The notes below the pieces were generated by a model. The model was not told where the DNA came from and ran no database searches. It saw nothing but the letters and a program-made list of their open reading frames with translations. Positions 1,827 to 21,700 of a DNA stretch of 36,563 nucleotides are shown here, piece by piece (position 1 is the first letter of the stretch; every line of letters begins with the position of its first letter). Origin of the DNA: Candidatus Kerfeldbacteria bacterium. Its GTDB lineage: Bacteria; Patescibacteriota; Patescibacteriia; UBA9570. Location: assembly GCA_016182495.1 (NCBI GenBank), contig JACPGK010000004.1, forward strand, positions 1 through 36,563, given 5' to 3'. The position numbers and the translations under genes are program-made.

Positions 1827-3168
1827 TGCTGCTACCCCAGCCACTACTGTAGTGCAACAATTAGTAGCCAACCCGGCTATAGTGAGTGGCATTGTGCAGC
1901 ACGCCTTGAGCACACTGCCATTTCCAGTGTCGCCAAATATACGACAACGCTTAACCATGGAATTTAAGCTAACTCCGGAAGATGCCCAGGTGATTAATCA
2001 ACTGGCGTTGGTAAAATTAGTGGCGGCTCGTCATTTAGCCCAAGCCTTGCATCGATTACACAGCGGCATCGAACGCGACACTAATCAAAATATGCAACAG
2101 GCTTCGTTAGCGGCCACGGCTGAATTGGCTCCGAGCTTAACAGCTGGTTCTGTCGAAAAACCAGCTCCCGCCCTCGATGATACTACCACTGATATTATGG
2201 CTGGTTTAAGTGAGGGAGGTGGCGAGGAGCCAGGTGAGAAACCGGCTGAAAAACCAGCTACCCGTCAGCCAGTTGCCTCGACTGATTCAGCTAGCGCCCC
2301 AGCGGCACCAAGTACTCCACCAGCCACTGATACCAGTGGAGTAAGTTCGCGTCCGCCGCCCCAGCGCCCCCCTGGCATGTTTAATCAGTTTGGCGGCACG
2401 CCACAACAACGCGGTCAAACTTTACAGCACTATGGGCAAGAAACCCAAGCCGAGCAACTCGGCGAAGGTGAACAAGCGCCACCGACACCTGATCAAGCCG
2501 AACAAGATCAACAAGCCGACGAAGATCAAGACCAAGCCGCTACTTTAGCCATGCAAAAACAGCAAGACCGGCGCCGAAACATCCAGCGTTGGAAATGGGG
2601 TGCGCAAGCCATTCAGGAAGCCGCTCAAGACGCCACCGAAGGTATGGGTGGAGATCCTGAACTAGATAATAATTTAGCGGCTTTAACCAAGGCTAGCCGT
2701 AATCCGGCATCAAATTCACGCACGCAAAAAGCCATGGCCGGAGCCGGCACCAGTATTGGCAATAGCATCAACGCCAAAATGAAGAGTGGTAATTTTAATG
2801 GTTTTTTAGCAGCCGCCCTGCTAGCAGTGACCAAAGATGCCATTGATTTTATGGAACCAAGTGGGGTGTTACCGTTGTTCATAGATTTGTTCGTGACTGG
2901 TGCTTTAGGGGCTATTTTGGCGAATCAAGGTAGTTGGTTTTTAAAAATGCTCAAACGTCGTTACCGCGGCAAAGCCTTGTTAAGTATTTTGATTGAATTG
3001 GTGCCGTTAATTGAGTTAGCTCCAACCTATACTATGCTGGTGATGATGGCAAAAATAGATGCTGATAAAGAGGTGAAAAAATTAAAAAACGCCCAAGGAA
3101 TTATTGCGCTTAATGTAGCGGCGATGCAAAAAGGTCATCAACCCAACCAAGACAATGACCAAGGTTGA
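1813..3168 (+). CDS. Unknown protein with disordered Pro/Gln region and C-terminal membrane hairpin
   Basis: The 451-residue product has three parts. The first ~100 residues are helical. Residues ~105-250 are low-complexity and rich in Ala, Pro, Glu and Gln (repeats of EKPA, then TPDQAEQDQQADEDQDQ), so probably disordered. The C-terminal ~170 residues carry two or three hydrophobic segments (FLAAALLAVTKDAIDFM, VLPLFIDLFVTGALGAILA, LLSILIELVPLIELAPTYTML) with a basic loop between (KMLKRRYRGK). The C-terminal layout recalls membrane proteins common near CPR secretion loci, but no family can be named. Start at 1813 or at the ATG at 1819; both overlap the end of the previous gene. Confidence 0.7.
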   Translation: MHMPNAATPATTVVQQLVANPAIVSGIVQHALSTLPFPVSPNIRQRLTMEFKLTPEDAQVINQLALVKLVAARHLAQALHRLHSGIERDTNQNMQQASLAATAELAPSLTAGSVEKPAPALDDTTTDIMAGLSEGGGEEPGEKPAEKPATRQPVASTDSASAPAAPSTPPATDTSGVSSRPPPQRPPGMFNQFGGTPQQRGQTLQHYGQETQAEQLGEGEQAPPTPDQAEQDQQADEDQDQAATLAMQKQQDRRRNIQRWKWGAQAIQEAAQDATEGMGGDPELDNNLAALTKASRNPASNSRTQKAMAGAGTSIGNSINAKMKSGNFNGFLAAALLAVTKDAIDFMEPSGVLPLFIDLFVTGALGAILANQGSWFLKMLKRRYRGKALLSILIELVPLIELAPTYTMLVMMAKIDADKEVKKLKNAQGIIALNVAAMQKGHQPNQDNDQG

Positions 3169-5197
3169 AACGCTCCGTGGTATTAATCATGGTATCAGTC
3201 AACGGTTAGGCAACTTACATATTCAAACGATCTCCCAGTTACTCTATCATTGGCCCAGCCGGTACGAAGATTTTTCTACTGTCCAAACAATTGCGTCTTG
3301 TACCGTTGGTGAAACGGTCACCATTGCTGGTCAAATTACGAAAATTCATAATCGCACCAGTTGGAAACGACGCCGTCTCACTATCACCGAAGCTGTCATT
3401 AGTGATGACACTGGAAAAATTAAAGCCACTTGGTTTAATCAACCATATCTAGCGCAAAACTTGCACAGCGGAGATGCGGTGTATCTTTCGGGTAAAATCA
3501 CAGAAAATAAATACGGTCGACACTTTGCCAGCCCCGTCTATGAAAAATATAAAGCTGATCCTACGCATACAGCTCGCATTGTACCACGCTATGCTACTAC
3601 CGCTGGGGTGAGTCAGCGCCAATTGCGCTATTTTATTAAACAAGCTCTTGAGCTTCACAAAACACCTGATTGGTTACCCAATAATGTTATTGCTGAACAG
3701 GAGTTGCTTCCATTAGCCGAAGCCATTCAAAAAATTCATTTTCCGAATAGTTGGGATGATGTTACTGTAGCCAAACATCGTTTAAGTTTTGATGAGCTGT
3801 TGTTAGCGCAACTATTTGTGCGTTCTACTACAGCGGCGCTGCGCCAAGAACGGGCGTATGCCATACCAACTGCCGCCAACCAATTAAAACAATTTGTTCA
3901 GCAATTACCCTGGCCATTAACCAATGCCCAACGTCTGGCCGCCTGGGATATTATGCGTGATCTCACAGCCACTAGGCCAATGAATCGATTATTAGAAGGC
4001 GATGTTGGCGCCGGCAAAACAGTGATTGCTATGTTAGCCATGTATAATACGGTCTTGGCTGGTTACCAAGCGGTGCTAATGGCCCCAACCGAACTGTTAG
4101 CTGAACAACATTACAACACCATGGCTGGTTTATTAGCACATACCACTGTGAACATTGGGTTAATGACTGGCCATAAAAAAATAACCGCTAACCAAACTGC
4201 CCTAGCCGCCGATATTTTGATTGGCACGCATGCTCTGATTCAAAAAAATGTTGTGTTTCATAAACTGGGTTTGGCCATTATTGATGAACAACACCGCTTT
4301 GGGGTAGCCCAGCGCCGCCAACTGAAAGATCAAGCTAAACCCACGGGCTATACGCCACATTTACTATCAATGACTGCTACGCCAATTCCCCGATCGTTAG
4401 CTTTAACATTATATGGCGATTTAGAGTTATCAATTGTAGATGAATTTCCGAAAGGGCGGAAACCGATTATCACTCGGCTAGTCACTACTACTTCGCAAAG
4501 AAATCAGCTGTATCAATTTATCAGTGAACGCATCAGTGTCGGTGAACAAATCTATATTGTCACTCCTACCATTGGACTGACCGACGACGCTGTAGAAGAT
4601 GAACAAGCCGACGACGCTGCAGTAACATCGGTCACAAATGAATATAAAAAAATTGTTCAACTGTTTCCGCAAGCTCGGGTAGGACAATTACACGGACAAA
4701 TGAACAGTGCTGACAAACAATCTATCATGACGGCCTTTCGTGATGGTGAGATTGATATTATGATCGCCACCACGGTAATTGAAGTAGGTGTAGATGTACC
4801 CAATGCCACTGTGATGGTAATTGAATCGGCTGATAGTTTTGGTTTAGCACAATTACATCAACTACGCGGTCGAGTGGGCCGATCTACTTTAGCCTCGTAC
4901 TGCTATGTGTGTTGCGCCGATACAACGACAGCGGCGTTAGCGCGCGTACAATTTTTTACTTCAACCAATGATGGCTTTACCTTAGCCGACTATGATTTAC
5001 AACGGCGTGGCCCTGGAGCGGTGTATGGCGAACATCAATCCGGTTTTCTTAATCAATTCAAATTAGCTACGCTAGCTGATCATCAACTACTTCAACAGGT
5101 TAAGCAAGTAGCTGATGACCTATTTAAAAATCTAAAAAAATATCCAACCGTCCAAGTTCGTCTCACGCAATTTACCAATCAAATTCATTTAGAATAG
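3155..5197 (+). CDS. recG: ATP-dependent DNA helicase RecG
   Basis: RecG remodels stalled replication forks and branch-migrates Holliday junctions. The 680-residue length is normal. An N-terminal wedge/OB-fold region (about 50-140) precedes the helicase core. Motif I is GDVGAGKT (282-289) and motif II is DEQH (377-380), the RecG signature variant. Motif III is SMTATPIPRS. The C-terminal lobe has VIEVGVDVPNA and the QLRGRVGRS motif, followed by the LQRRGPGAVYGEHQSG block. The ATG at 3155 overlaps the previous gene by 14 nt. Its 3' end overlaps the convergent minus-strand ORF by 13 nt, and no terminator is visible between them. Confidence 0.97.
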   Translation: MTKVETLRGINHGISQRLGNLHIQTISQLLYHWPSRYEDFSTVQTIASCTVGETVTIAGQITKIHNRTSWKRRRLTITEAVISDDTGKIKATWFNQPYLAQNLHSGDAVYLSGKITENKYGRHFASPVYEKYKADPTHTARIVPRYATTAGVSQRQLRYFIKQALELHKTPDWLPNNVIAEQELLPLAEAIQKIHFPNSWDDVTVAKHRLSFDELLLAQLFVRSTTAALRQERAYAIPTAANQLKQFVQQLPWPLTNAQRLAAWDIMRDLTATRPMNRLLEGDVGAGKTVIAMLAMYNTVLAGYQAVLMAPTELLAEQHYNTMAGLLAHTTVNIGLMTGHKKITANQTALAADILIGTHALIQKNVVFHKLGLAIIDEQHRFGVAQRRQLKDQAKPTGYTPHLLSMTATPIPRSLALTLYGDLELSIVDEFPKGRKPIITRLVTTTSQRNQLYQFISERISVGEQIYIVTPTIGLTDDAVEDEQADDAAVTSVTNEYKKIVQLFPQARVGQLHGQMNSADKQSIMTAFRDGEIDIMIATTVIEVGVDVPNATVMVIESADSFGLAQLHQLRGRVGRSTLASYCYVCCADTTTAALARVQFFTSTNDGFTLADYDLQRRGPGAVYGEHQSGFLNQFKLATLADHQLLQQVKQVADDLFKNLKKYPTVQVRLTQFTNQIHLE

Positions 5198-5955
5198 TAG
5201 TAGCCACGACTGGAAAAAAATAAGGCGGCGGTAACATCAAACTGCTCGGGTACGCTAAATTGCAAGCTGATCTCTTGGCCCGGAATCAGAGTGATAGGGT
5301 GGTGATCAATGCTTAATAAACAAGCTGTTACATCACCAAACTGGGAATGTTGAGCAGCAACTAGTGGTAGCAATACTTTAGATTGATCAACGGATTGAGT
5401 GGTCACCACGCTAGCCCAATCGATATCGTGCCTACCAGTCCAAACCAGTTTAATAGCAATGTGATCGGCTGGTAAATCAAGGTTGATTAAATTCAACAGT
5501 TCGCTGTTGGCCCAGTTTTCACGCGGATGTAATCGCTGTAGCGGCTGCCATAGCCCGGTGGTAAGTTGCACAAACACTTGAATAGATTTTGACGTGACTG
5601 GAGCAGTAACTGGAGTGCGATGATCGGGTGATTGCATCAATGGTTCAGCACTGTAATCGCGACCTTGAGCAAATAATAGTAATGATACATCGTCATTAGA
5701 TTCGGGGCGATCAAATTCTAAAATTATTTCATCACCCGGACGGCCACTAAAATACTGTTCATCTTGATTAGCAAGCATGGCCGTACAATGAGTACCAGTA
5801 CCAGTGGAACACTGTTGGACTGTTCCTATCGGTTCATACGCAACAATAGCATTAGTATCGGTAATGGCTAACGGCCGAGTGTTAGTTTGCGACACTGCCC
5901 ACAATTGCACTTGATCAAGTACGCTTTTTTCTTGTTCCCACTCTTTGATAGTCAA
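5185..5955 (-). pseudogene. Headless beta-sandwich ORF, probably an N-terminally truncated secreted protein
   Basis: The first possible start is a TTG at 5955, with no Shine-Dalgarno and no ATG or GTG upstream. The protein-like frame nevertheless continues upstream to a stop at 5998-6000 (reading YVYYSVIHTYQLTIKEWE). The segment EQEKSVLDQVQLWAVS resembles an internal strand pattern of large secreted proteins ("YLDQVRLLAVDH"-type) rather than an N-terminus. Two similar beta units follow: one ends EIILEFDRP...VSLLLFAQGRDY, the other ends EISLQFSVP...VTAALFFSSRGYY. There is no signal peptide or anchor. It is either a remnant of a longer gene or a gene with an unusual start. Confidence refers to the broken or truncated reading. 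Confidence 0.5.
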
Positions 5956-6070
5956 CTGATAGGTGTGGATAACACTGTAGTAGACATAGAAGAGTGATCA
6001 AGTATGGCGGCTTAAATATATGCTATTTACCCTGTATTTTATCACTGCTCTGTGATTAACTAAATATCAC

Positions 6071-7105
6071 TTAGTCTACTCTTCCTCTGTCATTATACAC
6101 ACAGCTAGGCTTAGTAGTATACACGTTAACTGATCGCGGATCGGGCGTACTATCAACGAATGAGGTGAAATCGCAATCTGAACCAGTACTGGCCGTATAC
6201 CACGTTAAACCTGAACTAGGATCACAAGCCGGTACGTTACCATTACATCGAGCGGCTTTGTATAATATCAAGTTATCACTAGGTCGTGTAGTATAACAAT
6301 AGGCATTATTAGCGATAGTGCTACCAGCAGTGCCGACTACTTGACAATTGGTAGCAGCTAAACCACACTGTTTGCTTTTTAAATCGAAGTGCCACCACTC
6401 AACCGAAATAGGGCTAAACTTTCCGGTAGCAGTCATCACCTGTTGTAACTCGAACTGATTATTGGCCAAGGCTTCATCGCCACCACCATTGTTATAACTT
6501 TGACTCAACTTACCTTTACTGGTTGGGGCAATCAGCGGGTCGCCGCCACCATAATCATACCACAAGTCAACGGCCACTCCCTTTTGATGGTTACTGCAGC
6601 ACGGTTTAGCCGCCTTGTTGCAGCTGTGACAGCCTGATGGAAAACCCTCTTTTTTTCGAGTAGTGCCAGCAGAATCAATATACCCTTCATCAACGCATTT
6701 TTGGTAACATTCATACAGGGGGGCTTGCTGTTCGGGGCTACGATAGGCCGAACCAACCTGAATGGTACAACTGGCACAAATATTAGCCACCATATTTTGA
6801 GCTACTTCTACCAAGCCAGCGGCTACGTTCGGGCAAGCTTGGGCACCATTACCACTTAAGCCCTGCACCGTTGGAATGGGTATTACTTCTACAGTATATG
6901 GACACTGGTACTGCACTGGTATTTTAAATACATCAACACCGATATTCACGGTAGCCGGGTTAATCAATAACAAAATGGTGTACGATAACAAGGCAATAAT
7001 CAAGCCGGCGAGCGCCGAAGTGATAATTTCTTTAGCGCTGGTAATTTTTTGTTCATTGCCGGCGGCCGTTACCCACTGCATACCGCCAAACATAATTAAC
7101 ACCAC
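6071..7105 (-). CDS. VirB2-like pilin segment fused to M15 (VanY-type) peptidase; frame-broken from its N-terminus
   Basis: Residues 1-50 hold half of one transmembrane helix, the conserved loop MFGGMQWVTAAGNE, and a full second helix (SALAGLIIALLSYTILLLINP), the pattern of CPR T4SS pilins. From about residue 85 the protein is a D,D-carboxypeptidase-like M15 domain: GSAYRSPEQQ, then SNHQKGVAVD (zinc ligands H173 and D180), then EWWHFD (catalytic E236, ligand H239). A cysteine-rich insertion (about 133-170) and a cysteine-rich tail flank it. Topology would put the peptidase outside, where it could trim peptidoglycan crosslinks. The GTG start at 7105 is forced: the natural N-terminus is the overlapping ORF 7096-7308 in another frame. 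Confidence 0.8.
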   Translation of the reverse strand: MVLIMFGGMQWVTAAGNEQKITSAKEIITSALAGLIIALLSYTILLLINPATVNIGVDVFKIPVQYQCPYTVEVIPIPTVQGLSGNGAQACPNVAAGLVEVAQNMVANICASCTIQVGSAYRSPEQQAPLYECYQKCVDEGYIDSAGTTRKKEGFPSGCHSCNKAAKPCCSNHQKGVAVDLWYDYGGGDPLIAPTSKGKLSQSYNNGGGDEALANNQFELQQVMTATGKFSPISVEWWHFDLKSKQCGLAATNCQVVGTAGSTIANNAYCYTTRPSDNLILYKAARCNGNVPACDPSSGLTWYTASTGSDCDFTSFVDSTPDPRSVNVYTTKPSCVYNDRGRVD

Positions 7106-7109
7106 GGCA
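6969..7109. repeat. 141-bp perfect direct repeat, copy 1
   Basis: This segment is identical over 141 bp, with no mismatch, to 10103-10243. It encodes the pilin loop and second helix (VVLIMFGG to the start of the NP motif). Its gene-proximal edge (7109) coincides exactly with the frame break of the pilin-M15 gene. The flanking bases differ between the copies. Confidence 0.95.
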
Positions 7110-7308
7110 CCGAAGCTTTACCGCCAATTGGTTGTTCTAAACTATAGCCACCTTCTGGTTTGGAAACATACTCTTCAGCCACGGCTTCACCAGCTCCACC
7201 CGGACCACAAATATCCTCTTCAGTGGTGGCTGAACCAACCGCTGGCACAATAAAAACAACCAGGCCAACCAGTACACTATTAATTAAACGTGGCCAAAAC
7301 TTCATCAA
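7096..7308 (-). CDS. Signal-peptide N-terminus of the pilin-M15 protein (separated by frame break)
   Basis: The 70-residue ORF starts MMKFWPRLINSVLVGLVVFIV and has a plausible cleavage site after VGSA. It continues to the pilin-type segment YSLEQPIGG, then stops in SVPWC followed by TAA. At that point the pilin sequence resumes in the -1 frame. Compared with the usual pilin layout, about 25-35 residues covering the first membrane helix are missing at the junction. The ATG at 7306-7308 overlaps the end of the DsbA-like gene by 29 nt. It should be read as the 5' part of the gene ending at 6071. Confidence 0.7.
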   Translation of the reverse strand: MMKFWPRLINSVLVGLVVFIVPAVGSATTEEDICGPGGAGEAVAEEYVSKPEGGYSLEQPIGGKASVPWC

Positions 7309-8035
7309 TCTTGGCTATTAATTGTTCAACTGACATTGCTTCAGTATATAATCGATCATTCACAAATACCGTGTGGCCATTAATAACACCGACAGTAGTA
7401 CCATAGTAATAATTTTGATCAACCACTGCTTGATACTGGCGACTATTGAGACACTCTTTCATGGTTAACTGATCAGCTCCCAAGCCGGTAGCTAACGTCT
7501 CCCAAGCGGATTGATCGTTACCAGTTGCGGTTGGCAGGGCTTGAATGAATTCCCAAAATAACCCTTGATCGGCCAAACAATGCGCTAGCTGTTGTTTGGT
7601 ACTAGTAGCGCCATTTGGTTGTGTAAAATCTTTCCACACTAGGCTCACTCGATCACCATAGCGAGTTCGCAAGGCTTCTATCTGATCGATATAGTTGGCG
7701 GCGGCTGGATCAGATACATCAGCAAAAAAAATCACAAACACATCAGCGCTCGGTGCTCCCAGCATTGGGTCGGCACTGGATACAAATACTCTGGTTTTAC
7801 GTTCAGCTTCAGCTTGATCAGCTGGTACGGTAGTAATCAGTGGATCATCAAATGGTACGGATTGTTGCAACAAGGCCGCTCCAGAATACACACTGCCAGA
7901 AAATGCTCCTGGAAAAAAACTTTCTAATAACACTGTTGATTTTAAAAACAGTATGGTGGTAAACAAAAAAATAAAGCCCAAAATAGCCACACCAGTGAGC
8001 GCGTAATACTGCATTTTGGAAACTGTTTTGGTCAT
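7280..8035 (-). CDS. Membrane-anchored DsbA/thioredoxin-fold protein lacking the catalytic CxxC
   Basis: A single N-terminal membrane anchor (about residues 11-32) is followed by a DsbA-like domain. The strand normally ending in FxDFxCPYC reads VIFFADVSDPAAANY, so the CPYC motif is replaced by DPAA (109-112). The cis-proline loop, normally GTPTFFING, reads GTTVGVING, so the cis-proline is also lost. The helical insert keeps family features (LAHCLADQGLFWEFIQAL, MKECLNSRQYQAVVDQN). It cannot act as a standard disulfide oxidase and may have become a chaperone or scaffold for the cysteine-rich proteins of this operon (inference). Only C153 and C195 remain. Confidence 0.8.
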   Translation of the reverse strand: MTKTVSKMQYYALTGVAILGFIFLFTTILFLKSTVLLESFFPGAFSGSVYSGAALLQQSVPFDDPLITTVPADQAEAERKTRVFVSSADPMLGAPSADVFVIFFADVSDPAAANYIDQIEALRTRYGDRVSLVWKDFTQPNGATSTKQQLAHCLADQGLFWEFIQALPTATGNDQSAWETLATGLGADQLTMKECLNSRQYQAVVDQNYYYGTTVGVINGHTVFVNDRLYTEAMSVEQLIAKIDEVLATFN

Positions 8036-8037
8036 AA

Positions 8038-9315
8038 TTATAACACGATCCGACGTAACCGACCGGTATTAGCTTCTCGATAGTATAACACATCTTCGTT
8101 ATCAGTCACTAGCAAATCAGTCGGCCCATTCAAATTAGTACCAGCAATGGGATCAGCTGGCGTAGCTAATTTTACAGCGATCCCTTGATGAATATCAATT
8201 TTATAAATATCGTGCGGCACATTATTCAATAAGCTTGGGGCAATGCCTCCGCCAGCGGGTGGATTCACCGGCACAGCGCAATACACCGTACTGCCAACCT
8301 TGTTAAAGGTACATTTATCAACGGAGGTGTTGAGATTCAATGATTTATTATTATCACCAATGGTATCACCATAGGCATCGACAATATGAAGTGTTGAATT
8401 ATAATTATTTTCGGCCGTGTAGGTACTGTACAGCATTTGCCGACCATTGTTTGACCATTGATAATTAAAGCCACGCCCTTCAACAATAAAATCTTTAAAA
8501 TTTTCACCTTTTAAACCAATCGGGATAACTTTTTTAGTGTCGGCATCAATAAATTCACTATAGGCACCAATGGCTTGGCCCGATGGTGACCACTCGGCCA
8601 GTACGCGATCACCGTTTTCGCCTAACGGTTCAATACCTAAAGCGCCACTGCCATCGATATTGGCAGTACCTAACCAACGATCTTGCGGGTTATCGGCCAT
8701 GAACTTAAAGCTAATTTGATCATCCGTTGGGGAAAAATCAAACTCTTGCATATCTTCATGCAAGGTATACTGCTGATCACGTTCAAAATCGTACAAAATA
8801 TTGAAACCATCTTGCAGTTCAAGCACCGCTTTGTTGGCATCGTGTGACCAGGTGGCTTGCTCAACTCCTTTAAACACCGCCTCACCTAATTGTACAACAT
8901 TACCATTGGCATCTATCCGGTAAAACCGCCCGGTAGCCGCATCATAATATTGCACGGTATCACCGTCACCACTCAATACCACATTTTGGGCATCATTATT
9001 ATAAATCACTTGAGCTAAGGTATTGCCACCGTTAGCGGTTTCTGTGAAGGTTGGTAAACCAGCCACATTGTCATTGATCACGCCACGATTGGCATTATTA
9101 ATAATCTCCGGCAATTGATTGACGTTAATCAATTGCCCATTAATGTTGACGGTTGGTTCGGGAAGCAATGGTTTAAAAAATAGCCAAAAAATAATAACGC
9201 CTAAAATAGCGGCCATTAATAAAATACCAGTCGCCAACACAATTCGGCGTTGGGTTTCGGTTAAATCTTCTACCCAAGTGGTGATATTCACAATGACATC
9301 GCGGAGATAATTCAT
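8038..9315 (-). CDS. Membrane-anchored beta-propeller (TolB/PD40-like) protein
   Basis: A cytoplasmic N-terminus of ~25 residues and one membrane helix (VLATGILLMAAILGVIIFWLFF, about 26-47) precede a ~370-residue extracellular domain. That domain is made of repeated strands with the TolB/WD40-like pattern: QATWSHDANKAVLEL, EFDFSPTDDQISFKFM, LAEWSPSGQAIGAYS and YQWSNNGRQMLYSTY. Such propellers are common in CPR T4SS-like loci and probably bind partner proteins or glycans. A TATACT box 5 nt upstream of the ATG suggests an internal leaderless promoter. Confidence 0.75.
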   Translation of the reverse strand: MNYLRDVIVNITTWVEDLTETQRRIVLATGILLMAAILGVIIFWLFFKPLLPEPTVNINGQLINVNQLPEIINNANRGVINDNVAGLPTFTETANGGNTLAQVIYNNDAQNVVLSGDGDTVQYYDAATGRFYRIDANGNVVQLGEAVFKGVEQATWSHDANKAVLELQDGFNILYDFERDQQYTLHEDMQEFDFSPTDDQISFKFMADNPQDRWLGTANIDGSGALGIEPLGENGDRVLAEWSPSGQAIGAYSEFIDADTKKVIPIGLKGENFKDFIVEGRGFNYQWSNNGRQMLYSTYTAENNYNSTLHIVDAYGDTIGDNNKSLNLNTSVDKCTFNKVGSTVYCAVPVNPPAGGGIAPSLLNNVPHDIYKIDIHQGIAVKLATPADPIAGTNLNGPTDLLVTDNEDVLYYREANTGRLRRIVL

Positions 9316-9320
9316 AGGCT

Positions 9321-9326
9321 AGTATA
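9321..9326 (-). promoter_or_regulatory. Possible internal leaderless promoter (-10)
   Basis: TATACT ends 5 nt before the ATG of the beta-propeller gene (9315). The -35 region is weak. It matches the spacing seen at the other suspected leaderless starts in this window. Confidence 0.35.
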
Positions 9327-9327
9327 T

Positions 9328-10239
9328 TTATGGTGCGTAACAAAAAGTATTTATTTTCTGAGAAAAAATACTAAAAATATTATAAGATGCAATATAAGAA
9401 GAAGAAATGGCGTCTCTTGTAGCCAACTGACAATTAAAACCACTACCTTCATAGGCGATGGGGTCAGTGGATCCAGCCGGTTGCCCCAGTTTACAATTCC
9501 AGGCTGCCTCAACACCAGTATTCAATCTCCAATCACTGCCGGCTATTTTTTCTTCACAAAGATCTCCCATTGTTTTATATATAGCAGCCTCCGCTGCCGC
9601 ATACGTAGTACCCCATGTACCATAATCATAATTAGCCGGAATTGACGGTACTTGAGGTAATAGTTTCATACTGTAGTAAGAACATACGCAATCACGCGTG
9701 GCTGTTTCTTTGGTATCAGAACTGCCGATCATAAATTTTTTGTATTTTGCTTCAGTCATGCAATCTTGCACCCATCGACCGCAATCATCAAGCTGGCAGG
9801 ATAACGCGCTGGCTGGTGTAAGTGGATCAGGGTAACAACCACCATCACCGCTTTCGCAGCGATCACCACGGCAATATTCTCCATCAAAAAATCCTAAATG
9901 ACCACAGGCGATATCTGGGCAAGGGATATCTTTTTTATCTTCACCGATACAGATATTATCTTTAAAATTGGCCGCGCTGGTTTTGCCATCATCGAATTTA
10001 TTATTGGAACATTTCGGTAAGTTATAAATACTATCATCGTTCTGCTGAATATCAATTTTAGAAACATCCAAGGTAATATTCACTAGAGTCGGATTAACAA
10101 ACAACAAAATGGTGTACGATAACAAGGCAATAATCAAGCCGGCGAGCGCCGAAGTGATAATTTCTTTAGCGCTGGTAATTTTTTGTTCATTGCCGGCGGC
10201 CGTTACCCACTGCATACCGCCAAACATAATTAACACCAC
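9328..10239 (-). CDS. VirB2-like pilin segment with cysteine-rich extracellular domain; frame-broken
   Basis: The first ~45 residues are identical to those of the pilin-M15 protein (MVLIMFGGMQWVTAAGNE and the second helix). After NPTLVNITLD the protein diverges completely into a ~250-residue tail with about seventeen cysteines (for example CPDIACGH, YCRGDRCESGDGGCYP, DCVCSYY), no peptidase motifs, and C-terminal FCYAP. It appears to be a paralogous pilin carrying a different, disulfide-rich head domain. The GTG start at 10239 is artificial: the real N-terminus with signal peptide lies in another frame at 10230-10406. Confidence 0.75.
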   Translation of the reverse strand: MVLIMFGGMQWVTAAGNEQKITSAKEIITSALAGLIIALLSYTILLFVNPTLVNITLDVSKIDIQQNDDSIYNLPKCSNNKFDDGKTSAANFKDNICIGEDKKDIPCPDIACGHLGFFDGEYCRGDRCESGDGGCYPDPLTPASALSCQLDDCGRWVQDCMTEAKYKKFMIGSSDTKETATRDCVCSYYSMKLLPQVPSIPANYDYGTWGTTYAAAEAAIYKTMGDLCEEKIAGSDWRLNTGVEAAWNCKLGQPAGSTDPIAYEGSGFNCQLATRDAISSSYIASYNIFSIFSQKINTFCYAP

Positions 10240-10243
10240 GGCA
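10103..10243. repeat. 141-bp perfect direct repeat, copy 2
   Basis: Identical to 6969-7109 over its full length. Its upstream edge (10243) coincides with the frame break in the second pilin-like gene. Confidence 0.95.
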
Positions 10244-10406
10244 GGGCGGCATTTTGAATTTTACTCACACCACCAATGGGTTGCTCTAATTGATAGGCAA
10301 TTTGTTCAACGTAACCAGAATTTTGAGCTTGGGCCGATGGAACTAGTACAAAAATAAAAAAAGCCAGAAAAAGAAGGCATGTTCTGCTGAATGATCGCCA
10401 GTTCAT
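10230..10406 (-). CDS. Signal-peptide N-terminus of the second pilin-like protein (separated by frame break)
   Basis: A 58-residue ORF starting at the ATG 10404-10406: MNWRSFSRT, then a hydrophobic core (CLLFLAFFIFVLV) with a likely cleavage after PSAQA. It continues YQLEQPIGG, parallel to YSLEQPIGG in the other copy, and ends LPWC-TAA. As in copy 1, the pilin sequence resumes in the -1 frame at this point and the first membrane helix is missing. No Shine-Dalgarno sequence is visible. Confidence 0.7.
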   Translation of the reverse strand: MNWRSFSRTCLLFLAFFIFVLVPSAQAQNSGYVEQIAYQLEQPIGGVSKIQNAALPWC

Positions 10407-10445
10407 GATGGCATGATAACAAAATTAAACGAAAAATTCAAGGTG

Positions 10446-11039
10446 CTACAACCACTTCACCATATCTACCTTCCAAGCCTCGGCCACTTTTTTTAACTGC
10501 AAGCGAGCAGTTTGATTAAAATAGGTCGAGGGAGCAAGCCCTTTAGTTTCGGTACGGCGCGTAGATACTTCAACCGTGGCACCAGTGGCTCCAGCGCTAT
10601 AATCGGTAATAGTAGCGGTCACCGCTTGGGTGGTAATACTGTAAAATTCCTTATTGGTATCAGCCTTATTTTCAAGCTTGGCGCTGGTTTGCTGCAACGC
10701 TTCAGTCATAAATGATCGCAGTGCTTGCAAATTTTCGTGATTACTATCGGAAGAAAAAGACCCATAGCGCTCAATAAAACTATTAGCAATACTGATAATA
10801 CTGCTGCGATCATCTGGCGCTACCGCCGAATCGGCCACCGGGTTAGTGGTAGTGGCATTAGTGGCTGTTTCACCGGCAGTTGTGGTGGTGGTAACGGTAG
10901 TGCTGACTTGATTGGTTGGATTGGTATCAGTAGTATCGGTTGATGACTGCTGACGTAGTAACACTACTGATACAATAATACTAGCGATCAATAACACTCC
11001 GGCGACACTGGCTAATAGCATTAAATTTCTTGTATTCAT
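10446..11039 (-). CDS. Membrane-anchored NTF2-like protein (VirB8-like position)
   Basis: The 197-residue product has one N-terminal membrane helix (about 7-28), a Thr-rich linker (about 33-70) and a C-terminal domain of ~120 residues. The domain starts ISIANSFIERYGSFSSDSNHENL and ends in strands RLQLKKVAEAWKVDMVKWL. The helix-then-curved-sheet pattern resembles NTF2-like/VirB8-type folds, and similar proteins sit beside virB4 in other CPR T4SS loci. In conjugation systems VirB8 is a periplasmic assembly factor; an analogous role here is inferred. It lies 8 nt downstream of virB4. Confidence 0.7.
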   Translation of the reverse strand: MNTRNLMLLASVAGVLLIASIIVSVVLLRQQSSTDTTDTNPTNQVSTTVTTTTTAGETATNATTTNPVADSAVAPDDRSSIISIANSFIERYGSFSSDSNHENLQALRSFMTEALQQTSAKLENKADTNKEFYSITTQAVTATITDYSAGATGATVEVSTRRTETKGLAPSTYFNQTARLQLKKVAEAWKVDMVKWL

Positions 11040-11047
11040 GGTATGAA

Positions 11048-12949
11048 TTATTTCATCTCTTCGGCAAACTCTTTCTTGGATTCCTCAATTTCTAACAACT
11101 GTTTAGGATCGGATGTAACAATTTGATCTTCTGTGTACGATGCTACCACTTTAATGGCGGCGTGTCGAGCACCGGCAAAAAAAATACCTTCACCAACATT
11201 GCCTTCTAGCAATAAATATTTCTCGCCATCGGTTAATAAAAATGTTTTTTGGATGTTATCAATGGCCGCCGGCGATTGTTTGAGTAAAATCTGCAAAGAA
11301 GAATTGGTCACAATGGCCCGGCCATAGGGTGATAACAAAAAGTCATTGACATCTTGGGTAATCGTAGTAACGCCTAAATAGTATTTACGACAACGCTTGA
11401 CTAGAGCAAAAATAAACTTGGCGGAATCTTCATTTTGCATTAACCACCAGGCTTCATCAATCACCAAAATACGTTTTTTTAATTGCGACCGTACTACGTT
11501 CCAAATGTAATTGACAATCATGTACACCCCAATGGGGCGTAATTCATCTTCTAAATCACGCACCGAAAACACCACTAACTGATTATTCAAATCGATATTA
11601 GTTAGGCTGGAAAATAATCCGGCAAAGGTGCCTTCGGTATATTTTTTTAAACGTAACACTAAATCTTTACTGCCTTCAAAGCCTTCTAAAATATCTTGAA
11701 AATCTTTCATCACCGGCGGTTCAATGGTGGATAAATCGGCCTCGGCGGTAATATCTTTTTTGGCGTAGGTTTCAATTAAGGCGCGATCAATAATAGAATC
11801 TTCCGCCGGGGTAATATTACCCAACATGATACGTAATAACCCTTTAATGGTAATCACCGCCGATCGAATGATATCAGCCGGACGATCGGCCCCACCCACG
11901 GCGCGCGGTAAATCGAACGGATTAATTTTGACTTCGGAGTTTAACGATATATTTAAAAATGTTCCGCCAACCGAATCGGATAAATATTTATATTCATTTT
12001 CCGGATCAATAATAATCACATCCGTACCCATCATTAAACTGCGCAACACTTCTAATTTAATAGTATAGCTTTTTCCGGCACCCGAAGTAGCGAACACTAC
12101 CGAATTGGCATTTTGCAATTTGAAACGATCGAATAGTATTAAACTGTTATTATGACGATTAATACCGTACAAAATACCGTTATCACTGGTGAGTTCAGCC
12201 GAAATAAACGGAAACGACGAAGCACAAGGGGACGAATTCATGTTGAAATAAATTTGCAACTCATCGTTGGCTAATGGCAGGGTAGAACTAAAACCTTGTT
12301 CCGCTTGGTAAAATACCCGTTTTGCCACCACTAATTTAGAACCAAACTCGGAATCTAACTTTTCCATTAAATCCTCTAACTGTTTTTCGGTATCGGCGTA
12401 CACACTCACGTACAAGGCGTATTGAAAAAATTTCTCGGTGCCTTGCGTTAAGCTATCGCGTAAACCTTCAATATCCTTCAAAGCGGTTTCTTTGATGGGG
12501 TCGCGCGGGGCGCCTTTTTCGGCATCAGAAATTAATTCGGCCTCAAGCGAACCAACTTTCTTCTTGAGCTGTTTTAAAATAATATCCGATCGCACTGGAT
12601 AAAAATACATGGCGATATCAAGCGATAAATTCATCATCACCAACGGCGCGAACCAACCAACCGCAATGTAGCGCGGATAGGTTACCACAAACATCGTTGA
12701 AACAAACCGACCACCTAAATCAATATGACGCGGCCGCACTCGTAAAGCCGCCGGCGCGATTAAATCGAGTACCGAGCGCACCCCTAATTCGTAGGCTTTG
12801 GCCGCTTCGAGCAATTCACGGGCCTGGTACTGCTCGGATTGTTTTTGTTGCTTAGCCAAGGTTAACTGTTCCTTGGTTCTGGGTTTCAAGGCGGCGGTCA
12901 CTGGTATGGTTTTGCCATCACGCTGGGCAGCGCGTTTAAAATCAATCAT
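11048..12949 (-). CDS. virB4: VirB4/TraC-type T4SS ATPase, C-terminal piece
   Basis: The 633-residue product contains the ATPase core. Walker A is TSGAGKS (288-294), preceded by the VirB4-like VVFA strand. Then come TDVIIIDPENEYKYL and the Walker B RILVIDEAWWLMQN, then GVTTITQDVNDFL and SSLQILLKQSP. The N-terminal ~120 residues include RPRHIDLGGRFVSTMFVVTYPRYIAVGWF, the usual start of the VirB4 central region in CPR. VirB4 energises pilus assembly and substrate transfer at the inner face of the membrane. It overlaps the N-terminal piece by four bases (ATGA), so the two are probably translationally coupled and act as one enzyme. Confidence 0.93.
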   Translation of the reverse strand: MIDFKRAAQRDGKTIPVTAALKPRTKEQLTLAKQQKQSEQYQARELLEAAKAYELGVRSVLDLIAPAALRVRPRHIDLGGRFVSTMFVVTYPRYIAVGWFAPLVMMNLSLDIAMYFYPVRSDIILKQLKKKVGSLEAELISDAEKGAPRDPIKETALKDIEGLRDSLTQGTEKFFQYALYVSVYADTEKQLEDLMEKLDSEFGSKLVVAKRVFYQAEQGFSSTLPLANDELQIYFNMNSSPCASSFPFISAELTSDNGILYGINRHNNSLILFDRFKLQNANSVVFATSGAGKSYTIKLEVLRSLMMGTDVIIIDPENEYKYLSDSVGGTFLNISLNSEVKINPFDLPRAVGGADRPADIIRSAVITIKGLLRIMLGNITPAEDSIIDRALIETYAKKDITAEADLSTIEPPVMKDFQDILEGFEGSKDLVLRLKKYTEGTFAGLFSSLTNIDLNNQLVVFSVRDLEDELRPIGVYMIVNYIWNVVRSQLKKRILVIDEAWWLMQNEDSAKFIFALVKRCRKYYLGVTTITQDVNDFLLSPYGRAIVTNSSLQILLKQSPAAIDNIQKTFLLTDGEKYLLLEGNVGEGIFFAGARHAAIKVVASYTEDQIVTSDPKQLLEIEESKKEFAEEMK

Positions 12950-13638
12950 GATGGTAAGGTACTACTATCAACCCGTAACTTAGCTAAATCTGGCAACTGT
13001 TTATTACTGCCACGAGTGGGATTATACATTTGATAGTACAGTTCAATTAAACTTTGGGTGTCGAGCTGTGATACCTTTAAGCCAATCGAGCTTAATCCTC
13101 CCGCGGCAATACTCATCCGACGATCTAACTCTTTTTTATATTTCGCAAACTTGGCATCAGCTAAGCGAATAATGCGGCTTGGAAACACCACTTCTTGGAT
13201 GCGGGTGAAAAAATTTTTACGCTTTTTTGAAAAGGGCGAGTACGGTACCACTACATAAAACTTTTTTTCCATAATTTCGGCTAAGGTGACCAACTCTTCA
13301 ATATATTGACGATATTCTTGCGTTTGCACTTTGAGCAGTTCGTTAGGTTGATTTTTGGCAAGCGTATTCAAATCTTCTAAATATGGCCTGATATCCAGCT
13401 TACGGGATTGAATGACAATTTGTAATTCAAAATCAATCGAGTTTAAAAATCCCACGTAACCTTGAATAATAGCGTGCTGTTCATCTTCACTTTTCAAGGC
13501 AAAATTAATCGAGGATACATCTAACACTGCGCGCAAGGTACCATCTTTTAAAATAACGGTATCCTGCTTCACCTCCGCAATATACACACTATGCTGGGTA
13601 GATGGTTTTTTAGATTTAGCTGGGGCTGTTTTTGGCAT
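12946..13638 (-). CDS. VirB4/TraC N-terminal domain protein (split VirB4)
   Basis: The 230-residue product starts with a Lys/Pro-rich tail and then shows the TraC/VirB4 N-terminal pattern: VYIAEVKQDTVILKDGTLRAVLDV, NFALKSEDEQHAIIQGYVGFLNS, FELQIVIQSRKLDI, and KKFYVVVPYSPF. It has no ATP-binding motif. In CPR genomes this domain is usually encoded separately, just upstream of the ATPase piece, as here. It would contact the membrane complex (PrgI/VirB3-like, VirB6-like). It starts 1 nt after the prgI stop. Confidence 0.85.
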   Translation of the reverse strand: MPKTAPAKSKKPSTQHSVYIAEVKQDTVILKDGTLRAVLDVSSINFALKSEDEQHAIIQGYVGFLNSIDFELQIVIQSRKLDIRPYLEDLNTLAKNQPNELLKVQTQEYRQYIEELVTLAEIMEKKFYVVVPYSPFSKKRKNFFTRIQEVVFPSRIIRLADAKFAKYKKELDRRMSIAAGGLSSIGLKVSQLDTQSLIELYYQMYNPTRGSNKQLPDLAKLRVDSSTLPS

Positions 13639-13639
13639 G

Positions 13640-14086
13640 TTATGTTTGATCGGCCTGTGCGGGGCTGTATTTACCGGCGGTATCCATAATTAAAGATAAT
13701 TCAGCCAGCTGCGACTGCGATACTTCTGGTTTGGGTGTAAACTGATCGTTATCTTTATGATCTTTCTTGCGATCTTTACGCGACAGTTTGGTGATTACTT
13801 GATGCACCGGATCGCGCCGCCAAATACTTAAGTGCGGCCGCTTTAAGGTTTGAATTAAACTCAAGGCAAACAAATGAAACGGCTGACTATTTACTTTGGC
13901 AAAGGCAAAGGTGCCGCCTAAAGTTAACGTGAATACTCCCAAAACAGCAAAAATAACAAAACTAAAAATTTCATAGAGCAAAAAAATCAACCCAGCGGTC
14001 ACCAATAAAATTAAAAATTGCCGCACCGAAATTGGACCAATCACTTTTGATTCAACTTCAATAAATTGCGGGACAACAAATTGCAT
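13640..14086 (-). CDS. PrgI-family protein (VirB3-like T4SS membrane component)
   Basis: The N-terminus MQFVVPQFIEVESKVIGPIS is the PrgI signature, followed by RQFLILLVTAGLIFLLYEIF and a second helix, FVIFAVLGVFTLTLGGTFAFA. Then comes the conserved short motif PFHLFALSLIQTLKRPHLSIW. The tail (about 95-148) is polar and charged, probably cytoplasmic. PrgI proteins occupy the VirB3 position and bind VirB4, whose gene follows immediately. Confidence 0.88.
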   Translation of the reverse strand: MQFVVPQFIEVESKVIGPISVRQFLILLVTAGLIFLLYEIFSFVIFAVLGVFTLTLGGTFAFAKVNSQPFHLFALSLIQTLKRPHLSIWRRDPVHQVITKLSRKDRKKDHKDNDQFTPKPEVSQSQLAELSLIMDTAGKYSPAQADQT

Positions 14087-15838: not shown

Positions 15839-18697
15839 TTAACTGATCGGGCCAACCCCTTGTTTAATAGAATCTTGTAAGATACCTTTGGTCCGTTTAA
15901 TACTGGCATTTCCCCAAGCATCCATAGCCGAAACTGCCTGCTGTAAGACTGCAGAATTACCACTATGAATTGTTTGCACTAACTCTCTCAAAAAATCTCG
16001 AATTTCTGGCTGACGATGAAACCAACCTTCACCTTGTTGAGCATTCAAATAGCCTTTATTGGCTGAATCTCCCAATTTTGGCATACCTTCGGCTAACACT
16101 CGAGCAATTGGATAAAATATTTTTTGCATATATTCTCCAGTTTTTCCATCTTTATAATATTCAAATGCTCCCAAGTGAGTATTTTTGGCTAAGGCTTGCG
16201 GACCGCGTTTAGCCGATTCGGTATACACCCGCTCGTAGCGTTCGTCATCATTGCGCCATTGGTATTTACCATTTTTAAAACCAACCGCCTCGGCAAAAAT
16301 CCAGTGGCCAGCATCACGAGCTGAATTTGATATATCATTCATGGCCGACATTACTGCTTCTTCGGAAATTTTAGTTTGAATTTGAATACGCTTGGCTAAA
16401 TCGCGCATCCCTTTAACGCTCACTTCTAAACCTTCGGCTTTTAATATTTCATTTAAATGGCCCACTTTAGTGGCTTGCGCTAAACCAGCCAAGGCATGAG
16501 TGCCATTTTTTTCGTGCATTTTCTCTTGAAAAAAGGCTACTAATTTATCTTCGTTGGTTTCACCATGGAATTCTTTTTGAGCTTCGGCTAATAAGGCTTG
16601 CTGTTTGGCTAACCCTTCAAAATCCATCACTGGCGCCCATGCTTTGGCTCGTTTTTGGGCAGTTTCTAGAGCCTTTTTAGCTTTATCGGCAATCGCTTGA
16701 TCAACTTTCAACTGTTCTTCAATCACACTCTTCAATACCGCTGGGCTGGTAATGTTGCGACCATTGTAATTATCATTTTTACTGCCCCATTGCGTACGGT
16801 CTTTTTTTAAATCAGCCGCTCGTTTATCTAAAGCTTGGCGCATAGTGCCGCCTAAGCTGACATCCAGGTTAATTCTACCGGTTTTTTGAACTAACGCTTG
16901 ATCAATCAGCTTAATTTCACTATCAATGCGATCACCATCACCATGGCGGCCATCGGCATAAGCTTGATCTCGTTCTTTTTCTTTTTGATTTTTAACTTGT
17001 TCTAATAACGTCCTATCACTACTGCCTTCGGTCATATCCCAACCGGCGGTTTCGTGATGCGTTTCGGCATCCTCAATTTGATCCGTCAGTTGTTGAACGC
17101 GTTTACGTTTCTCTTCAACGGTGGTGAAATTCTCTTCCAAAGTAGTACGCTTGGTTTTAACCGTTTCTTGGGCAGCAGTATGAGCCGCTTCTTTTTCGGT
17201 TAAATCACCTTCAGCAATACCTTGGCCGAATCGACCCACTAATAACCGACCTAATTGACTTTTACGCCAATCACCGCCCGCCCCATACATTAATCCTTGA
17301 ACGCCAAGCAACGGCATGTACTGCTCGTACTGAAAATCAGCTGCTCCTAACCAGCCTTTCACAAAATTACCTTGCTGGGCGGCTTTACCGGCTTTAATAC
17401 GCCCTTGCATGACGCGCCGATTTTGAATTTCTTTACGTTGATGTTGCAACAGTTCAAACTGACGCGGAATGTTTAAATCCAAACCCCATTTTTCGTACAT
17501 GCGATCATTAACGACACCGGCGGCTGGTTTTAAGCCATAGCGTAATGGCGCTTTAGCGATAAACTTACCAAATGAAGATGCCTGACTAGTAATGGAGCCC
17601 AGTTCAGAAGAATTATCCTGGGCCATTTTCAAACCAGCCATTAACATCATGGCCGAAATAATAAAACCGGTAATAGTGTTCACGTTCAAAGCGCCGGATT
17701 TAGATAGTTGTGAAATTTGCACATCAGCTGGAATAATAGAATCAATGTTTGGGTTAGCGGTTTTGCCTAGCTCACCGCCGGTTTTGGCAGCGATAAACAT
17801 GGCTAACCACAAATAAAACATCACCAGTGGGCCAACCATCACGTACCGACCAAACATTTCCCACCATTGCCGGTAGTATTTCTCGGTAGCTGGCAATACC
17901 GAACAGGCAAAAGCTAACGGCGATAGTACCGTTAAAAACCAAATAAATACCAACCGACCAACTAACACCACCACGTACACTAACTCCACCACCACCAACA
18001 CCGCTAACATTAAGCCGGCTGCCGCAATAGCCAGTAACCGATTCGATTCCAATGTAGTACCGCTACTTTCTACATTCACACCCGAAGCTGATTCAGTGCT
18101 TTGAACATCTTTCAGAGCATCATCGGTACTCAACAGTTTACTCAATTGAAAGGCGGTCACAATACCCTGGGTGGCGGCCGGGGCAATGGCGGCAACAAAG
18201 GTGAGCATGATCACTTGCGCAGCATCAACAATTACTCCACAAATGGCCCGCGAGTAGTTAATTAAAATTGCCGCCAACAACATTTTTGGTAACAATTTTT
18301 TCCACGAATAGGCCTCAATTTTAAATAACGTGCCAAAGGCAATCAACAATAAAATGGCAATAAAAAACATGTTGGAGATATCACGCACCAAACTCCAACT
18401 TTCGATAATAATTGGCTTGTCGGTAAATCCAGAAAAACTGGAAGTGTACACTAACAACTTGGCACCCACCGTAGCAAAAAAACCCATGATGTAAATCAAG
18501 AAAAAATACATGATGCCGGAAATAATAAACAACAAATCATCCAGCCCAAAGCCAAGCCAGGCCATGGTTGGTCCGCTTGGGGTAATTAAGCCAAGTGTTA
18601 CGGCACACCCCACCGCTGTCATGCCGGCATACGATAACGACCGACGCGTCAATAGTGTTAGGATGGATTTAATGACAAATTGAAGAAAAAATGACAT
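15839..18697 (-). CDS. VirB6/TrbL-like polytopic T4SS channel protein with large cytoplasmic tail
   Basis: The 952-residue product has eight or nine membrane segments in the first ~370 residues. They include LLFIISGIMYFFLIYIMGFF, LLPKMLLAAILINYSRAICG and LVYVVVLVGRLVFIWFLTVL followed by SPLAFACSVLP, the last being the TrbL/VirB6 core pattern. The remaining ~580 residues are hydrophilic, charged and coiled-coil-prone (ENFTTVEEKRKRVQQLTDQI), an arrangement usual for CPR VirB6-like proteins. VirB6 forms the inner-membrane channel and contacts the pilin and VirB4. It lies 5 nt downstream of the giant gene. Confidence 0.85.
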   Translation of the reverse strand: MSFFLQFVIKSILTLLTRRSLSYAGMTAVGCAVTLGLITPSGPTMAWLGFGLDDLLFIISGIMYFFLIYIMGFFATVGAKLLVYTSSFSGFTDKPIIIESWSLVRDISNMFFIAILLLIAFGTLFKIEAYSWKKLLPKMLLAAILINYSRAICGVIVDAAQVIMLTFVAAIAPAATQGIVTAFQLSKLLSTDDALKDVQSTESASGVNVESSGTTLESNRLLAIAAAGLMLAVLVVVELVYVVVLVGRLVFIWFLTVLSPLAFACSVLPATEKYYRQWWEMFGRYVMVGPLVMFYLWLAMFIAAKTGGELGKTANPNIDSIIPADVQISQLSKSGALNVNTITGFIISAMMLMAGLKMAQDNSSELGSITSQASSFGKFIAKAPLRYGLKPAAGVVNDRMYEKWGLDLNIPRQFELLQHQRKEIQNRRVMQGRIKAGKAAQQGNFVKGWLGAADFQYEQYMPLLGVQGLMYGAGGDWRKSQLGRLLVGRFGQGIAEGDLTEKEAAHTAAQETVKTKRTTLEENFTTVEEKRKRVQQLTDQIEDAETHHETAGWDMTEGSSDRTLLEQVKNQKEKERDQAYADGRHGDGDRIDSEIKLIDQALVQKTGRINLDVSLGGTMRQALDKRAADLKKDRTQWGSKNDNYNGRNITSPAVLKSVIEEQLKVDQAIADKAKKALETAQKRAKAWAPVMDFEGLAKQQALLAEAQKEFHGETNEDKLVAFFQEKMHEKNGTHALAGLAQATKVGHLNEILKAEGLEVSVKGMRDLAKRIQIQTKISEEAVMSAMNDISNSARDAGHWIFAEAVGFKNGKYQWRNDDERYERVYTESAKRGPQALAKNTHLGAFEYYKDGKTGEYMQKIFYPIARVLAEGMPKLGDSANKGYLNAQQGEGWFHRQPEIRDFLRELVQTIHSGNSAVLQQAVSAMDAWGNASIKRTKGILQDSIKQGVGPIS

Positions 18698-18702
18698 ACA
18701 GT

Positions 18703-21700
18703 TTAATCAGTGCTAACCAGGATATTAAATGACGGTGTATCGTAGGTGCCGCAATCGTTACCAATATTAGTGGTGCTATCGCCACTAAAGCGATGATCGC
18801 CGGCTCCTTGAGCGCCGGAACAAAAATTCCAGTGATCCAGCAAGGTAATCTGCGGTTGAAACTCACAATCGGTATCCACATTACCATCAATATCGGTATC
18901 CACATTACCATCAATATCATAGCCGGCGTATTCTGGGCCACAGTTGTAGGCATGGGTAAAAATATGGGTGGTGGGAGCAGCTTCCCAGGTAAAGCGGTTA
19001 GTGTTGCCATCGCCCCAATCAATGTAAATGAAATCCAGAGCGGTTTGTTCAGCATTCACCGTTGACGTGAATTGAAATTCAAGGGTACGGCCGGCTTCAA
19101 CATCGTAACTGCCATCAGCAAAATCACTGGCAGCGGTATGGCCATCCACGGCAATCACACCACTGGCAATGGCTGGTAAAATACCACAGTATTCATCGGC
19201 TTCATCACTGGGCCGATCAGTCAAAATGTTACCATCGGCATCGGTACAAATTGACATATCAGCAAAAATGTTACCATCGCCATCATCCCAATAATCGGGT
19301 ACACCGTTATTGGTATACACTGTTCCAGTCAGGCTGGTAAAATCCAGTTTGTAGAAATCGCCAGCAATATCAGCAAACACATGTTTTAAGCGTTCACGAG
19401 CATTATCTACTACTCCGGTAATTTGATCATCTAAGGTATCGTACGTGCTGGCCAATGTTACCAGGCCATCGGCTAATCCTTCCGCGCTAACTTCGGCATC
19501 GCCAATGCCCATGCACACGCCGTTATCACCGCAATCACCATCATCATCACATTCATTACCATTACTACCGCTTTCACTGAAACTATTCACACAAAAGCGT
19601 TGATCACATTTACCAATGCAGCTTAATGGCCGCCCGGAGTGTGGCGCCGAACTGCTGGCAACGATTGGCTGGTAGTTGAAAGTCCCATCAATATAGAGAT
19701 TAATAAAGTTTTCAGGGTCAACAGATAAATACGGATCCCACACCAATGGAGTATCATCTTGGGTAGTGATTGAACCGTACGGTGAATTATCCGAGCCAAA
19801 TTGAATGGGGTTATCACTTTGACTATTGATGGCATACCCATCACTGCCATTAGCCGCCCGGCTGGCCCAAGCTACATTATCACCATTGGGAGTGACATCT
19901 TGAGAAATCACCGCGCAGCTTTCGCGCACTTGCAAATCAAGAAACATGTGTTGGGAGTAAGTCAATTCCACACCTCGATCGGTATCCGGCGTGCCATCGG
20001 CTCCAACATACAATAAATAATATACCGCTTGAATATAGCCCTGCTCATTCACATCCAGCCACAAGCTAAACAAATTATTTCCACCATCCGCATCTGCCCC
20101 GCGTTTGGCTTGGATATCTTGTAACGAATCCCACCCTGCCCAGCTGCCTAAATCATCTTCATCAAATACATAGGTAGCGTAATCTTCGCTGGTGATTTGA
20201 TTTTCTACGATATTGTTTAACACACTACCAGGTACATGGTTCCAAGGATTGCGTGAACCATTGTTATCGGTGGTGGTCCAGCTAGCCACTTGATTGCCAT
20301 CACTCGAATCAATCCCCATCACCTGTTTAACGGTTTGTTCAACACAGGGTGAGGCAAACATATCGGGTTTACTTTCGGCGGTAACTAATTGATTAAAGCG
20401 GTATAAATATTTATCTTCATCATCGGTATCGGCCTGTTCACAATGATACAGTAATTCACTTTCTTCAGGGCCGTTATCAAGATCAAAATTACTCCAGGCC
20501 CAGTTATACACAATATCCATGTTATCGTAACTACCGGCTTGATCTTCATAGTAAGTGGGTAAAAATTCACTGTCGTACAAACCCCAATTACGGCAACCAA
20601 AGCCTGGTACTTCAACGTCAAAGCCAGCGCAATCATTCCATGGTTCATAATCACCGGTAGCATCGTTACGACTAATTGAACCTTCGAAAAAATCAGTTAG
20701 CACCCAATTACCGTAGGCGCTGCAATCATAACTACCGCAATTAGTGGGATCATCCGGATAAGCCGGCGTGCGATCATACGGCGATACTGAAGCATTCTCA
20801 AGATCAGCTCCATAACCCAGCTGGCCCCAATATTTATATTCATCTGTGACTCCTCCGGTTTCACCGGCGGAACCGGTATTGTAAATAATCGATTCAATTT
20901 CGCTGATATGAATGTTGCGTAAAATTTCATTGGCCGGGATACGGGCAATCATGGCATGATCATAATCACGTTCGGTATTGACATCAAATACATCTGGCAC
21001 TTGCCAGCGTAAGGCACGCACGCGGTAGCCGTTATCAATTTCATTATAATCGCCAACATTATCTTCATCCAAACCAGTTTCAGGATGATCCTTTTCGGCG
21101 CTGAACGCGGCTACAGTGACAGCTGCTTCAGTATCAAAGTTATCAGTATTGGCAATACCATCATTATGCGTGGGGAAAGTGTAATTAGCCCCTTGGATAC
21201 ATTCACCGCTATCGCACTGATCGTTATTGGTACAAATTTTACCAGTGCCAAAGGTGATTGGATCGTTCGTATCCCAAGTGGCTTCATCACAAAAGCCAGG
21301 TTCTTGTAAACCTTTCGATACCAAACAATGGTACACGTTCGATCGACCACCGCTACCGTTATAGCCCGATGGCACTCGCTCGACAATAGATTCTTCACCA
21401 GCCAAAATATCTTGTGGCCACCAACTGATACACCGTTGATTATTAGTGGGATCTTGTTCTAAACAATAGCCTTTCCAACCTTTAAATACGCCGCCAGTAG
21501 CCTGGGTATAATCACATTGCAAGGCATCGCTTTCGGGGTAGGCTCGGCACGACCGAGTAATAGGATCAAGTTCTTTGCTCACTTCTAACACCGGCATTAA
21601 CGATACATTATCAATTTGAATGTGTGAGTTATCAGAGGCTAAAAATTCCAAATCAGTCGTTACGTCGACAATTTCGCTGTACGCCGCCTCGTTATCTTCT

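Follow-up and report, generated by a model that had tools for sequence, protein, structure and literature searches.

Within the window, i.e., the whole DNA stretch of 36,563 nucleotides that was analyzed, a gene of a T4SS operon was found to join a pilin-type membrane module to an M15 peptidase. The reading that we prefer, with a probability of about 0.6, is that the encoded protein, pilin A, is a membrane-anchored, VirB1-like wall hydrolase dedicated to the T4SS, that the type of hydrolase is swapped between lineages, and that a break in the window copy is a probable assembly error. For the class as a whole, we regard the chances as about even that the VirB1 that seemed to be missing from the T4SS is a pilin, with wall opening built into a pilus-type subunit that has a VirB2-like module and one place in the operon and takes up different wall enzymes. 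This wider pattern, a VirB1-like function on a VirB2-like module, is of more interest than the single fusion. An earlier note on this DNA had described the fusion, but missed that several unrelated hydrolases are found, as judged from sequence, on the same module and in the same operon place.

The core of pilin A is an ORF of 344 aa (6071-7105, minus strand), identified from the ORF list and by Pfam, which encodes in one frame the rest of the first transmembrane helix (TM1), a cytoplasmic loop and TM2, followed by the M15 peptidase and a Cys-rich tail. The T4SS_pilin match in this ORF covers profile positions of about 25-68 of 71 and has a score of 21.3 bits, and the M15 matches have scores of 22.3 bits (VanY, cut-off 25) and 22.2 bits (Peptidase_M15, cut-off 27). 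In this damaged copy all three scores are thus slightly below the Pfam cut-offs. The peptidase domain comprises about residues 90-251 (6353-6838, minus strand), based on the Pfam matches and on a comparison of profile A3, which represents the M15 part, with the PDB. A3 matched the M15 enzymes 4mph, 4jid, 4ox3, 4ox5, and 1r44 with E-values down to 3e-12, and D,D-carboxypeptidases, the L,D-carboxypeptidase LdcB, L-Ala-D-Glu endopeptidases, and VanX were matched alike.

The zinc ligands H173 (6587-6589), D180 (6566-6568), and H239 (6389-6391) and the catalytic E236 (6398-6400), all on the minus strand, are present exactly where the earlier note had placed them, within the motifs SxHx(6)D and ExxH. 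They are invariant in the alignments of 12 fusion proteins and seven VanX-type relatives. Based on residues and profiles, the peptidase of pilin A is assigned to the M15 type. Like the VanY/LdcB-type M15B carboxypeptidases (4mph, 4jid, 4ox3, 4ox5) and VanX (1r44), it has SxHxxGxAxD, ExxH, and a conserved Arg and Gln; unlike them, the fusion peptidase has long Cys-rich insertions and the pilin module. Carboxypeptidases trim stem peptides and do not cut crosslinks, and the earlier wording of a carboxypeptidase that performs crosslink cleavage should therefore be dropped. AlphaFold2 models made with shallow alignments had pLDDT values of 38.7 for the whole ORF and 51.3 for the M15 domain, and Foldseek searches with these low-confidence models gave no meaningful fold match. 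A contig search for relatives of the window peptidase retrieved chiefly VanX-type enzymes from other phyla. Two matches of the M15 domain to viral contigs were discarded, as they were coincidences of tail proteins on WYDYGGGD.

The fusion is intact in relatives. Three genomes of the same family, which belong to other genera (G001-G003), encode single-frame fusions of 449, 478, and 448 aa, which match residues 1-312 or 1-335 of the window protein at 44-50% identity in one comparison and at 39-48% by blastp. A signal-peptide-like stretch and two TM helices are present in all three, and the part that follows the pilin module contains 15-19 Cys. The G002 protein is above the Pfam cut-offs, with 32.4 bits for T4SS_pilin, 27.2 bits for VanY, and 28.5 bits for Peptidase_M15. 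The intact relatives have the sequence features of PF18895 proteins, i.e., the signal peptide, the charged loop flanked by two TM helices, and the PF18895 match, and intact pilin-M15 fusions were also found in the class well beyond this family, in many others. The joining of pilin-type module and peptidase in one frame, which had been claimed from the window sequence, was thus verified in the core ORF and in the three other genera; assignment of the two parts to different genes, or a loss of zinc ligands, which the earlier note had named as grounds for rejection, was not seen in the relatives. In signal peptide, two-helix module, and location near virB4 the fusion is like other PF18895 pilins known from Patescibacteria, among them those of the array that is essential in Ca. 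S. epibionticum, but unlike these it bears an enzymatic tail of 200-300 aa.

The pilin A gene is a member of the virB4/prgI operon, which has the conserved order prgI, virB4 (two ORFs), u197, pilin 1, propeller, DsbA-like, pilin 2, and recG on the opposite strand; in the window, pilin B is in the first and pilin A in the second pilin place. On the minus strand, a PrgI/VirB3-like protein (13640-14086; 25.9 bits, cut-off 27) precedes the VirB4-type ATPase (11048-13638), the ATPase motifs of which were read in two overlapping ORFs (11048-12949 and 12946-13638); this split into two ORFs is kept in the relatives examined. The gene u197 (10446-11039, minus strand) encodes a small membrane-anchored protein, conserved between virB4 and pilin 1, for which a VirB8-like role is possible. 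A conserved membrane-anchored, beta-propeller-like protein (8038-9315, minus strand; weak Pfam match) is followed by a DsbA-like protein with a thioredoxin fold (7280-8035, minus strand; Pfam Thioredoxin_4), which is conserved at this site ahead of pilin 2 and is the likely disulfide partner of the Cys-rich pilin tails. The conserved operon boundary, a recG-like helicase gene (3155-5197, plus strand), and a VirB6-like polytopic membrane protein (15839-18697, minus strand) were both assigned by reading the sequence. The VirB6-like gene adjoins an ORF for a secreted Cys-rich protein of 3923 aa with a VWA-like stretch, DIVFAIDTSSSMSGE (18703-30474, minus strand). The class of the window and its relatives is probably ABY1, because recG beside T4SS loci has been reported for this class (PMC12102498). 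In one locus of the class (L088, G043:C1:7000-23000) the pilin-propeller-DsbA cassette is present in two mirror-image copies, each ending with recG.

The distribution of hydrolases on pilins was analyzed by Pfam scans of 75 pilin ORFs of at least 250 aa, taken from class genomes of which most are the single representative of their family. T4SS_pilin was recognized in 71 of the 75. Strong tail domains were VanY/M15, SLT, SLT_3, Amidase_2, 3D, a C39-like peptidase, and Big_5, all of which except Big_5 are wall-hydrolase types, C39 being less specific. Pilin places and hydrolase counts (including M15, SLT, Amidase_2, and 3D) were assigned by hand, with pilin 2 defined as the pilin between the DsbA-like gene and recG. 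A hydrolase was present in 20 of 35 pilins at the second place versus 0 of 20 at the first (Fisher p = 6e-6), and without the loci that had been retrieved partly via the M15 part the numbers were 14/27 versus 0/16 (p = 3e-4). The other 15 of the 35 second-place pilins are without a hydrolase recognized by Pfam, and some of them resemble Cys peptidases or lysozymes by eye.

The search for the domain pair that had been proposed in the earlier note revealed that the pilin-M15 fusion recurs across the class. When 285 genomes of the class were searched with the M15 profile only, 18 of the best 30 loci were outside the profile build, and in 17 of these 18 the pilin was encoded in the same ORF. Of 20 inspected neighborhoods of M15 loci, 18 adjoin recG and/or the DsbA-like/propeller genes. 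Outside the class, 28 M15 loci were sampled and none encoded a pilin along with M15, whereas pilin-SLT fusions are present there (L196, L199, L205). Judged from these tails, the pilin module was shown to accept interchangeable hydrolase types between lineages, which argues that the function that is kept would be the local opening of the wall and not one chemistry. Five tandem pilins were found in L065 (G017:C1:68000-80282, 5196-11608), the tails of which are an amidase, three 3D domains, and an M15 domain, the latter detected by profile A3. Two further tail families on T4SS-operon pilins (L084/L076/L074 and L092/L093) have Cys and GD...H patterns and are Cys-peptidase-like by eye; searches of the PDB with these tails gave no match.

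In a recent study, PF18895 pilins of Patescibacteria were listed near virB4, and few VirB1 homologues were found in this group (Quinonero-Coronel et al. 2025, PMC12102498). It was concluded that the pilus needs no VirB1, and other enzymes were allowed as possible substitutes. M15 and VanY are absent from the main text of that paper, and its sole passage on a fusion concerns VirB3-VirB4. A description of pilin-borne hydrolases was not found in the text of openly licensed papers; pairs of this kind may be present in the domain listings of databases. T4SS_pilin (PF18895) and SLT_3 (PF18896) are numbered consecutively in Pfam, and the curators may have seen a fusion.

The VirB1 proteins of monoderm T4SSs are membrane-anchored and have enzymatic domains of the CHAP, SLT, muramidase, or LytM type on the outside (PMC12857230). 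Like PrgK (pCF10), TraG (pIP501), and Orf14 (Tn916), pilin 2 is encoded in a T4SS operon and has a membrane anchor and a predicted outside wall-cutting domain, with SLT among the types. Unlike these proteins, which have simple TM anchors, it is anchored by a VirB2-like T4SS_pilin module, its enzyme is often M15, amidase, or 3D, with mostly one hydrolase domain per protein, its tail is Cys-rich, and its gene adjoins a DsbA-like gene. With regard to the operon, it groups with VirB1, as it is conserved with virB4, prgI, and other genes across families. With regard to the domain it does not, as the window protein has M15 only and no SLT, CHAP, or NlpC-type domain; in other families SLT occupies the same pilin place. 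Pilin 2 would therefore resemble VirB1 in its proposed job, while by sequence it is not a VirB1 homologue. The hydrolase-bearing pilins at a fixed operon place suggest that the VirB1 function is present and escaped notice, being fused to a pilin and often not of the SLT type. For the question of how epibionts pass a machine through a wall, they offer a protein that can be assayed and a marker gene.

For the intact protein, the following mode of action is proposed. It would be exported by its signal peptide and span the membrane twice. The hydropathy of the protein, its charged loop and Cys-rich tail, and the DsbA-like gene next to its own suggest that the M15 zinc peptidase is disulfide-rich and placed outside the membrane, and its disulfide folding may be aided by the neighboring DsbA-like protein. 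Through its pilin-type helices it could dock onto the T4SS, beside its sister pilin B, and at the site where the machine passes through the wall it could cut or trim peptidoglycan, i.e., perform the job of VirB1. A role as bulk pilus subunit is unlikely because the tails are 200-300 aa long, and pilin A is more likely a minor or basal subunit or an anchored enzyme. The placement at the tip or the base of the pilus in the earlier note is conjectural, and membrane anchoring would suffice.

A single intact gene that runs in one frame through 6071-7308 was not confirmed. The leader of pilin A, a signal-peptide-like hydrophobic stretch with the part before TM1 (7096-7308, minus strand), is in a frame that differs from that of the core, and its ORF closes at 7096 with PWC and a stop codon. 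The conserved start of TM1, which reads GEYIQLVYRFALGIVGI in the relatives, is missing. The break point is at 7109/7110 (minus strand), where the window gene is about 64 nt short in comparison with the spacing in six genes of relatives. This reference consists of the A and B genes from three relatives (LEQ to VVxIM), and the LEQP-to-VVLIM spacing is 35 nt in pilin A, 50 nt in pilin B, and 99 nt in all six reference genes. Pilin B (9328-10406, minus strand) also lacks the TM1 start and is broken at the same base. Its core, which has the pilin module and a Cys-rich tail without hydrolase domain (9328-10239), and its leader (10244-10406) are again in different frames; its orthologues are L051:5103, L052:10313, and L053:6667. 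Both breaks fall on the left end of a perfect repeat of 141 nt, the copies of which are located in pilin A (6969-7109, minus strand) and pilin B (10103-10243, minus strand). A third copy is not present in the window's genome, and in the relatives exact identity between A and B extends over at most 20 nt. A repeat-driven misassembly is the likely cause of the break in TM1, because both copies resume at one base, which is the left edge of the perfect repeat. A programmed frameshift was ruled out, as the lost piece of the helix would still be absent and the relatives keep one open frame. A chimera of a peptidase with a foreign pilin was also ruled out, as the similarity of A and B extends beyond the exact repeat and the orthologues are joined identically. 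A genuine split is very improbable; both pilins would then lack the TM1 start and either yield leader and core as two products or be pseudogenes. Both copies do read so in the sequence, and GTG starts are present at 7105 and 10239, but two independent deletions would have to share one end point, precisely on the repeat edge, although all six genes of the relatives keep the 99-nt spacing and have only short exact A/B identity. In addition, the product would be without signal peptide and have half a helix, and yet its active site is intact. If the disruption were real, the gene would be dead or re-started in this strain.

Two other readings concern the role of the intact protein. In one, the hydrolase is displayed or delivered by means of the pilin module and opens the wall of a host, which would aid feeding or attachment of the epibiont. 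Most Patescibacteria are epibionts; in the only one examined for it, a Saccharibacterium, the T4SS is essential (PMC11665869). The enzymes are diverse and fast-changing, as would be expected of interaction factors, and the tandem pilins of L065 bear different wall-enzyme tails. The single fixed operon place, usually with one enzyme, is a better fit to a machine part, however, and many epibiont T4SSs could require passage through their own wall only, so that we regard this host-directed role as unlikely. Even less probable is that PF18895 is a mere two-helix anchor for an enzyme of ordinary wall maintenance, without mechanical link to the T4SS. The module also bears Big_5, Cys-rich, and very long tails and thus has no single function, enzymes of the VanY type are common in housekeeping roles, and the phylum also has standalone M15 proteins. 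Against this stand the tight conservation within the virB4/prgI operon across families and the confinement of the M15 fusion to the class, as far as sampled. Within one genome, moreover, the modules of pilins A and B are 80-100% alike at the aa level, versus 57-75% for orthologues between genera, which suggests co-adaptation of interacting partners or gene conversion.

SLT, NlpC/P60, and CHAP domains were not found in the window's genome, which is 96% complete, and this absence supports the T4SS-dedicated, VirB1-like role of pilin A. Other wall enzymes of this genome count against that role. Two proteins could be alternative candidates for the wall work, i.e., a LysM and M23 peptidase protein with N-terminal hydrophobic stretches, encoded beyond the T4SS genes on the same strand (35012-36436, minus strand), and a second M15 protein (C8). 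The same genome (G000) contains further pilins: ten T4SS_pilin genes are located on both strands of C13:21081-25611 (L001, L003-L011), and at C16:33647 (L002) a pilin is part of an ORF of 2801 aa.
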